A DNA stretch of 35,174 nucleotides from a virus. Of the stretch, positions 16,992 through 18,638 are shown piece after piece. The notes under the pieces were generated by a model, which ran no database searches, was not told the origin of the DNA, and worked only from the letters and a program-made list of their open reading frames with translations. Numbering within the stretch: the first letter of the stretch is position 1; every line of letters starts with the position of its first letter. The position numbers were made by a program, and so were the translations under genes. The stretch is from the IMG/VR virus record IMGVR_UViG_3300025759_000297, positions 1-35,174 of that record, one strand, 5' to 3'.

Positions 16992-18321
16992 TGAAGAATA
17001 TGTTAGAAAGGTTGTTCCTTTTCTAAAACCAGATTATTTTTTAGATGTAGAAGATAGAGAAGTTTATAAAACTATTTCTAACTTTGTTGTAAAATATAAT
17101 TCCCCTCCTAGTAAGTCTGCCTTACTTATAGCCCTACAAGAAAATAGAAGCATTAGTGAAGATTTATATGGTAAATGTGAAACCTTAATTAACGGACTTA
17201 TAGAAGATAACGTTAATGAGGAATGGCTTTTAGAGTCTACAGAAAAGTTCTGTAAGGACAAAGCTGTTTACAATGCCATAATGGAATCCATACAAATTAT
17301 AGATGGTAAAGGTGAAAAGACTCCTGATGCATTACCTAGCATACTTTCAGATGCCCTAAGTATAGGTTTTAATGTTACAGTTGGACATGACTATATAGAA
17401 AATGCTGAAGAACGTTTTGACTTTTATCACAGACTAGAAGAAAAAATGCCTTTCGATTTAGAGTTTTTTAATAAAATTACTGAAGGTGGATTATCAAACA
17501 AAACATTGAATATAGCACTTGCAGGCACGGGAGTAGGTAAGTCGTTGTTTATGTGTCATATGTCCTCAGGAGCAATTAAACAAGGCAAAAATGTTTTATA
17601 CATTACATTAGAAATGGCAGAAGAAAGAATTGCAGAAAGAATAGATGCAAATATGATGAACATTGCTATACAGGATTTAAAAGATTTATCTAAGCAGATG
17701 TTTGATGAAAGAATTGACAAGATTAAAAAGAAAATAGAAGGTCGTCTTGTAATTAAAGAATATCCTACAGCATCAGCACACGCCGGACATTTTAAAATTC
17801 TACTTGATGAATTGAAAATTAAAAGAAACTTTGTTCCTGATATTATTTTTATTGACTATCTAAACATTTGCACAAGTAGTAGATTTAGGCCAGGTAGTTC
17901 TGCAAACTCTTATACAATTATTAAAAGTATCGCAGAAGAGCTTAGAGGCTTAGCAGTAGAGTTTGATGTTCCTATTGTTTCTGCTACACAAACAACAAGA
18001 AGTGGTTATAATTCTAGTGATGTAGAACTTACAGATACTTCTGAATCGTTTGGTTTGCCTGCAACGGCAGACTTAATGTTTGCTTTGATTAGCACAGAAG
18101 AACTAGAACAGATGGGACAAATAATGGTTAAACAATTAAAGAACAGATATTCAGACCCTACAAGAAACAAAAGATTTATGATAGGTGTTGATAGAAGTAA
18201 AATGAAATTGTTTGACTTAGACGATTCAGCACAAAAACAAATCCAAGACTCAGGTCAAGGGCAGGGTGAAAACTCTTTTCTTAAAAAACTTGACGATTAT
18301 TCCAGTATTAAATTAGATTAA
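16951..18321 (+). CDS. 41: Replicative DNA helicase gp41 (DnaB family)
   Basis: 456 residues, close to T4 gp41 (475). The N-terminal domain (to about 150) is the helical primase-interaction part. Walker A is AGTGVGKS (191-198). Walker B is IIFIDYLNI, and VSATQTTRSGY near residue 345 is the DNA-binding/sensor loop of DnaB-type helicases. It forms a hexamer that unwinds DNA 5' to 3' on the lagging strand. The primase gp61 is not visible in the window. It is followed directly by a late promoter and riboswitches. Confidence 0.95.
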   Translation: MRLETQILSNLLFNEEYVRKVVPFLKPDYFLDVEDREVYKTISNFVVKYNSPPSKSALLIALQENRSISEDLYGKCETLINGLIEDNVNEEWLLESTEKFCKDKAVYNAIMESIQIIDGKGEKTPDALPSILSDALSIGFNVTVGHDYIENAEERFDFYHRLEEKMPFDLEFFNKITEGGLSNKTLNIALAGTGVGKSLFMCHMSSGAIKQGKNVLYITLEMAEERIAERIDANMMNIAIQDLKDLSKQMFDERIDKIKKKIEGRLVIKEYPTASAHAGHFKILLDELKIKRNFVPDIIFIDYLNICTSSRFRPGSSANSYTIIKSIAEELRGLAVEFDVPIVSATQTTRSGYNSSDVELTDTSESFGLPATADLMFALISTEELEQMGQIMVKQLKNRYSDPTRNKRFMIGVDRSKMKLFDLDDSAQKQIQDSGQGQGENSFLKKLDDYSSIKLD

Positions 18322-18322
18322 A

Positions 18323-18330
18323 TATAAATA
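18323..18330 (+). promoter_or_regulatory. Late promoter (TATAAATA) abutting the riboswitches
   Basis: TATAAATA runs into TATAAT (18329-18334), but no usable -35 exists for the latter. By T4 late-promoter geometry the transcript starts at about 18336, at the first bases of riboswitch copy 1. Confidence 0.65.
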
Positions 18331-18333
18331 TAA

Positions 18334-18380
18334 TACGTTCATCCAAACGGACGGAAGTAGTCATAAGACGAAGGAACGCA
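18334..18380 (+). ncRNA. Glutamine riboswitch, copy 1 (glnA/Downstream-peptide class)
   Basis: The core matches what I know of L-glutamine aptamers: CGTTCATC, hairpin P2 (TCC-AAAC-GGA), ACGGAAGTAG, hairpin P3 (GTC-ATAA-GAC), then GAAGGAACGCA. The outer stem P1 pairs CGTTC with GAACG. The invariant junction segments CGGAAGTA and CGAAGGAACGC are intact. A second copy follows after five bases. In known examples glutamine binding stabilises the three-way junction and raises downstream expression. Confidence 0.82.
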
Positions 18381-18385
18381 TTAAT

Positions 18386-18436
18386 TACGTTCATCTCGTA
18401 AGAGACGGAAGTAGGTAATGAAACCGAAGGAACGCA
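18386..18436 (+). ncRNA. Glutamine riboswitch, copy 2 (tandem)
   Basis: Same architecture as copy 1, with compensating changes: P2 is TCTC-GTAA-GAGA and P3 is GGT-AATGAA-ACC, while the P1 arms and junction segments are unchanged. Base-pair covariation between the two copies supports a conserved RNA fold rather than a chance repeat. It ends nine bases before the peptide ribosome site ACGGAG (18445-18450), so it could control translation start. Confidence 0.82.
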
Positions 18437-18456
18437 ATCTTTTTACGGAGATTGAC

Positions 18457-18600
18457 ATGACTAAATATCAAAACGCACTTTTAATTAAACGTGCAGTCAA
18501 AAAAGAAATATCCAAGGAAAAGCAAAGCCCTAAGGCTAATATTCGTGTAGTGAAGGAGTCTTCATTACCTGATTATATTGCTAAAAATCCCTGGTATTAA
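18457..18600 (+). CDS. Riboswitch-controlled 47-residue basic peptide
   Basis: Starts at ATG 18457 behind ACGGAG with 6-nt spacing. An in-frame ATG at 18418 lies within riboswitch copy 2 and is unlikely. The peptide is Lys-rich (KRAVKKEISKEKQSPKANIR) with an aromatic tail ending NPWY. It matches the pattern of the Downstream-peptide glutamine riboswitch, in which short unnamed proteins follow the aptamer. Cyanobacterial relatives of this riboswitch control small glutamine-synthetase inactivating factors, also short and basic, so this is a candidate modulator of host nitrogen metabolism. No sequence homology to IF7/IF17 is claimed. Confidence 0.7.
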   Translation: MTKYQNALLIKRAVKKEISKEKQSPKANIRVVKESSLPDYIAKNPWY

Positions 18601-18606
18601 TCTTTG

Positions 18607-18629
18607 GGGACTCTTCGGAGTCCCTTTTT
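18607..18629 (+). terminator. Rho-independent terminator after the riboswitch peptide
   Basis: GGGACTC, tetraloop TTCG, GAGTCCC, then TTTTT. This is a textbook intrinsic terminator that closes a self-contained riboswitch-peptide unit. Confidence 0.93.
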
Positions 18630-18630
18630 G

Positions 18631-18638
18631 TATAAATA
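18631..18638 (+). promoter_or_regulatory. Late promoter of the holin-like genes
   Basis: TATAAATA one base after the terminator T run, 35 bases before the ATG at 18673. It restarts late transcription for the membrane-protein pair. Confidence 0.7.

Follow-up and report, generated by a model that had tools for sequence, protein, structure and literature searches.

Tandem glutamine riboswitches were reported by Weinberg in 2010 (PMC2864571), and a 2022 review counts 157 glutamine doublets and 4 triplets, which it files as pseudo-cooperative (PMC9481103). Glutamine activates gene expression through the class-1 and class-2 switches characterised so far, and the riboswitch class was called restricted to cyanobacteria in a 2018 review (PMC6316151); earlier marine metagenome matches lie upstream of nitrogen genes (PMC2864571). 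In the crystal structure, glutamine binding leads the junction base G23 to pair with C60 (PMC11477058), which in the crystal sequence is the base directly after P1 (PMC5393176). The T4-like marine phages Melnitz, Mosig and S-CREM1 likewise carry the glutamine-I riboswitch (glnA motif, RF01739), and the accessible parts of the two reports mention no tandem aptamers in them (PMC9004378, PMC9964418).

The cassette described here resembles the tandem form of RF01739 in that each of its aptamers aligns with the complete model, and differs from known RF01739 tandems in that it belongs to a phage, lies behind a late-promoter box and controls a small ORF whose family has no name. By contrast, the glutamine riboswitch of Melnitz is reported with ssrA (PMC9004378), and that of S-CREM1 precedes a YRG-motif ORF. 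The Downstream-peptide motif (RF01704, class-2) is likewise a glutamine aptamer before a very small ORF (PMC2864571, PMC6316151) but is described by a separate covariance model, and the gifB (IF17) glutamine riboswitch of cyanobacteria likewise precedes a small basic protein; unlike IF17, a glutamine synthetase inactivating factor carrying the DUF4278 domain, the ORF of our cassette has no DUF4278 match. Tandem and phage-borne glutamine riboswitches are thus already known and the basic finding is not new; in our judgement, what is worth following is that the aptamers appear to be coupled, that they sit behind a late-promoter box and that the arrangement is shared with SAR86. The analysis establishes both aptamers, a conserved hairpin anchored at C60 with covarying arms, covariation between the inter-aptamer linker and P3, and an ORF family tied to the switch. 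We propose, with a probability of roughly 0.55, that the cassette is a translational ON switch on a late mRNA, with its two aptamers arranged in series to act on a single start site.

Results

Two glutamine aptamers in a phage sequence

The window is the entire 35,174-base IMG/VR viral record, which is probably a fragment of a larger genome. Its replication genes are of T4 type and encode a DNA polymerase, a UvsX-like recombinase, a sliding clamp, a clamp loader and a gp41-type helicase, the last being nearest to those of cyanophages and methylophage Melnitz. The gene after the cassette best matches phage C48C1 and Pelagibacter phage Mosig. Using the leader DNA and the 47-aa peptide as queries, we found no homologue of the cassette in cultured phages.

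An all-Rfam cmscan of the 35-kb window returned two glutamine riboswitch matches and one tRNA. Aptamer 1 (+ strand, P1 to P1 18336..18378, Rfam span 18334-18382) scored 57.4 bits (E 2.8e-10) and aptamer 2 (+ strand, P1 to P1 18388..18434, Rfam span 18386-18438) 60.3 bits (E 4.3e-11), both above the RF01739 gathering score of 35 and both aligned over the full length of the model, confirming the tandem glutamine riboswitch that the first-pass annotation had named. Each copy has the P1-P2-P3 three-way junction with CGGAAGUA, GAAG and a C after P1, and equivalents of G23 and C60 (numbering from PMC5393176). The helices are as that annotation listed them (P2 TCC/GGA versus TCTC/GAGA; P3 GTC/GAC versus GGT/ACC), with identical junctions, CGGAAGTA and CGAAGGAACGC, in both copies, and its appeal to covariation as a sign of selected RNA structure is borne out by more than 100 relatives that vary in sequence yet keep pairing. 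The copies are not five bases apart, as it had stated: the P1-to-P1 spacing is 9 nt. The Downstream-peptide model (RF01704), which it had also proposed as a check, has no match in the window at the gathering score. The first aptamers of L009, L013, L057, L253 and other loci share a near-constant P2 extension, CACTCTAAATGTAGCAGTG, and some second aptamers carry a related one.

A TATAAATA box at 18323..18330 (+ strand), a consensus match to the T4-type late-promoter core, lies directly 3' of the gp41 stop codon (18319-18321) and ends 5 nt before aptamer 1, a few bases ahead of the putative transcript, as in a T4-type late gene. Of 65 distinct tandem leaders from viral relatives, 48 have TAAATA at 3-14 nt before aptamer 1 (background 0.8%), and TATAAAT is taken as the T4-like late promoter in the Melnitz report (PMC9004378). 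The window holds 14 copies of TATAAATA, all on the + strand, where 6.2 would be expected on both strands together. These sites span 3114-34391, through the replication genes, and from their sequence are likely to be late promoters. The placement of the riboswitch in a phage late region is accordingly supported by the upstream motif and not by the adjoining genes, which serve replication (DNA polymerase, UvsX, gp41-type helicase) and are not structural genes. An intrinsic terminator, GGGGACTC-TTCG-GAGTCCC-TTTTTG (18606..18630, + strand), is the sole + strand terminator near the cassette and sits 3' of the ORF; the next TATAAATA box begins right after it, at 18631. The cassette thus runs in the order late box, aptamer 1, 9-nt linker, aptamer 2, Shine-Dalgarno (SD) hairpin, 47-aa ORF and terminator.

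An expression platform for each aptamer, which characterises pseudo-cooperative tandems, was not found: the whole cassette has one SD hairpin and one start codon, with no terminator or start between the aptamers. For aptamer 1 this leaves only aptamer 2 or the start codon to act as a platform. Judged by the relatives, the aptamers look more like a coupled pair sharing a single expression platform than like two independent copies; a steeper glutamine response from the tandem, proposed in the first-pass annotation, is plausible.

A conserved small ORF follows the switch

The ORF (18457..18600, + strand; ATG at 18457, stop codon 18598-18600) encodes a 47-aa peptide, MTKYQNALLIKRAVKKEISKEKQSPKANIRVVKESSLPDYIAKNPWY, of a conserved family that we call family A (MTKYQ...RAVKK...LPxYITDNPFYP), in which seven positions are invariant across 37 aligned sequences (M1, T2, P38, Y40, N44, P45 and Y47). 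It has no match in Pfam, PHROG or PDB. Assignment to DUF4278 (PF14105) found no support, the peptide having no Pfam match up to E = 1, and neither did resemblance to a solved structure. AlphaFold predicts one confident N-terminal helix with the rest loose (pLDDT 76).

An exact-pattern scan for two close aptamer cores retrieved 115 viral stretches with the same tandem arrangement, and a single-core scan at least 120 viral matches; the ORF after viral aptamers is almost always very small and belongs to several unrelated families. Searching by the family A peptide alone yielded 36 viral loci, all with an aptamer directly upstream (36/36) and 28 with two, counts that overlap with the 115 because some of these contigs also appear in the pattern scan. 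This search and the prokaryote scan below used an earlier family A alignment that differs in the tail of one row (L216) and has the same seven invariant columns. Some viral relatives of the cassette encode DUF4278 (36.9 bits); viral tandems of L016, L021, L037, L054 and relatives precede ORFs with three YRGV repeats matching this domain. In the annotated glnA riboswitch of S-CREM1 (L255:1505-1603), the P3 region contains an inserted second hairpin that resembles an aptamer (CGTTCATTCG...GAACGC).

A hairpin anchored at C60 covers the Shine-Dalgarno sequence

The SD hairpin, CAATCTTT-TTAC-GGAGATTG (8 bp; 18435..18454, + strand), has the C60 equivalent of aptamer 2 as its first base and abuts P1 of that aptamer flush. 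A helix of at least 5 bp beginning exactly at the C60 equivalent was found in 93 of 113 distinct leaders versus 12% of shuffled leaders; it ends in or beside the SD and overlaps it in nearly all leaders, and most of the remaining leaders seem, by eye, to carry an SD-covering stem in a different register. With the 3' arm picked by its TG and without reference to pairing, the arms were Watson-Crick at 69% of the three free positions, compared with 43% after permutation (17 distinct arm pairs). The covariation score was 0.416 versus 0.243 in shuffles, none of 500 shuffles reached the observed pairing and covariation, and shifting the partner arm abolished the signal.

Because G23 pairs with C60 on binding and the hairpin starts at C60, we infer that glutamine would open the hairpin by capturing this base. 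The reverse arrangement, in which glutamine lowers expression, or an effect on mRNA stability or termination instead of translation, appears improbable. Flush stacking of P1 on the hairpin could stabilise the closed state, but activation is the mode of the glutamine riboswitches characterised in class 1 and class 2 (PMC6316151), the only nearby + strand terminator lies after the ORF, and nearly every leader has its SD overlapped by the hairpin.

The linker covaries with the P3 arm of aptamer 2

The linker CATTAATTA (18379..18387, + strand), whose first base is the C60 equivalent of aptamer 1, contains CATTA, the complement of TAATG at 18416-18420, which is part of aptamer 2's P3 arm. Among tandem relatives the linker between the P1 helices measures 6-11 nt, and linker and P3 fall into matched classes (CATTA with TAATG, CATTG with CAATG, CATC with GGTG). 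The anchored linker-P3 helix averages 5.38 nt, versus 4.40 nt with permuted partners (0/2000 as high), and 1.8 nt when the linker is set against aptamer 1's own P3. A P3 starting GG[CT]AATG is present in 31/51 distinct second aptamers versus 3/75 single aptamers. We traced the classes on a tree of ORF and leader from which the linker and P3 elements had been excluded. The combined linker and P3 label changes at least 16 times on this tree; within family A every linker class stays with its own P3 class, and the CATTG/CAATG class alone accounts for 5 changes, 3 of them forced by well-supported branches. Neither a matched linker nor a matched P3 is present in 12 of 43 family A loci. Throughout, many of the loci are near relatives, and locus numbers should not be read as numbers of independent events.

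The inter-aptamer covariation and joint switching are signs that the first switch may control the second. If the two riboswitches were instead independent and merely stacked, in the pseudo-cooperative manner, the linker-P3 and P3-start complementarities would be incidental; glutamine doublets have been filed this way (PMC9481103) and a minority of loci are missing the coupling helix. We regard this as somewhat unlikely, given that linker and P3 arm switch together on the tree and that the tandem shares one ribosome site and one SD hairpin with neither terminator nor start between the aptamers. Near-identical aptamer 2 modules in separate ORF clades suggest recombination, which can shift linker and P3 jointly with no need for selection on pairing, and the CAUU/AAUG portion may amount to no more than a harmless contact between loops. 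In the open-licence literature on glutamine tandems, we found no description of inter-aptamer complementarity.

Predicted pairing over the start codon and ligand-free folding

TAGTCAT, formed by the P3 5' strand and loop of aptamer 1 (18358..18364, + strand), is complementary to ATGACTA over the start codon (18457-18463). This complementarity spans 5-7 nt in 42/43 family A tandems, and the second codon is ACT in 46/47 distinct family A loci. Synonymous recoding of the ORF start lowered the predicted P3-start pairing in 43/43 loci, from 5.6 to 2.9 pairs on average. The pairing is absent from other ORF families, for example MTMWTRYC; it is a family trait, weaker than the SD-hairpin and linker-P3 helices.

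In ligand-free ensembles the mean number of pairs was 5.3 for the SD hairpin, 4.0 for linker-P3 (with shuffled linkers as the control) and 5.6 for P3-start in family A, and the window RNA alone folds better than its shuffles (z -2.5). The ViennaRNA folds contain no ligand, tertiary contacts or E-loop and give the native P1 helices almost no weight; they consequently overstate the ligand-free fold, and the gap of approximately 6-14 kcal/mol by which the alternative fold lies below the native one is not literal. P1 strand swapping between the aptamers, which is implied by the invariant P1 sequence and is not evidence in itself, was rejected at 0.2 pairs in the folding.

The cassette is shared with SAR86

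Scanning 84,980 prokaryote genomes for family A identified two SAR86 single-cell contigs, one of 313 kb, each carrying tandem RF01739 aptamers (55-62 bits) and a family A ORF in an ordinary chromosomal neighbourhood. SAR86 loci with a tandem RF01739 before a family A ORF are L253, L254, L263, L264 and L265, at least two of which share an oxidoreductase gene as a conserved neighbour. Within the family of the genome with the 313-kb contig, 5 of 35 genomes have tandem matches over the cut-off, and several have a sub-threshold aptamer variant (26.9 bits) whose P3 is enlarged and which precedes a YRG-motif ORF. In such variants from SAR86 relatives (L262, L266-L269 and L275), P3 is larger by approximately 70 nt and the small YRG-motif ORFs are DUF4278-like. 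A sample of 369 gammaproteobacterial genomes included one small genome in which a tandem precedes glutamine synthetase and another in which single aptamers precede gltB and gltD; a sample of 398 genomes of the phylum contained no further case. In the small gammaproteobacterial genomes G066 (L273, L276, L279) and G322 (L274, L277), RF01739 precedes glnA (tandem), gltB and gltD, and also a probable outer-membrane protein gene and a small ORF. We found no link between SAR86 and glutamine switches in the literature, limited to open-licence papers. Cyanobacteria as the sole source are ruled out by the SAR86 loci.

In an unrooted whole-cassette tree, the four SAR86 copies group together in a supported clade that lies among the viral copies. 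The homologous tandem and ORF in SAR86 chromosomes would fit a cassette of host origin that travels as passenger DNA and plays no part in infection. We consider this very improbable, as viral copies have an upstream late-promoter box that the SAR86 copies lack, and divergent viral contigs have kept both the RNA pairing and the ORF.

Discussion

In the translational ON switch that we favour, the late promoter would give rise to an mRNA of approximately 290 nt that starts at the first aptamer and comprises two class-I aptamers, the 47-codon ORF and the terminator. Without glutamine, the hairpin after aptamer 2 would cover the Shine-Dalgarno sequence, and aptamer 1 would engage two partners, its 3' flank pairing with the P3 arm of aptamer 2 and its own P3 strand pairing over the start codon. 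With glutamine bound, the junction base G23 is predicted to capture the conserved C60 just after P1. C60 would be the first pair of the SD hairpin in aptamer 2 and of the inter-aptamer helix in aptamer 1, so that binding by aptamer 1 would free aptamer 2 and binding by aptamer 2 would free the ribosome site. The ligand, the ON direction, the serial order and the late timing are what we infer from comparative sequence analysis.

A more specific version, which we offer tentatively, is that aptamer 2 serves as the expression platform of aptamer 1, giving an AND-type response to a single ligand in an arrangement common to phages and SAR86. The linker would block P3 of aptamer 2 until aptamer 1 binds, with P3 of aptamer 1 masking the start codon and aptamer 2 gating the Shine-Dalgarno sequence. 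If real, this coupling would be a naturally occurring example of one aptamer gating another, and a candidate reason for the frequent pairing of glutamine switches.

Glutamine aptamers occur in marine phages as well as in streamlined heterotrophic gammaproteobacteria, in contrast to the restriction to cyanobacteria stated in the 2018 review (PMC6316151). The product of the ORF is a small basic protein, which is perhaps a counterpart of the cyanobacterial small proteins under glutamine riboswitches. Any function proposed for it is a guess; glutamine synthetase or a different enzyme of nitrogen metabolism may be its target, and this conserved small protein would perhaps be made late in infection, when glutamine is plentiful.
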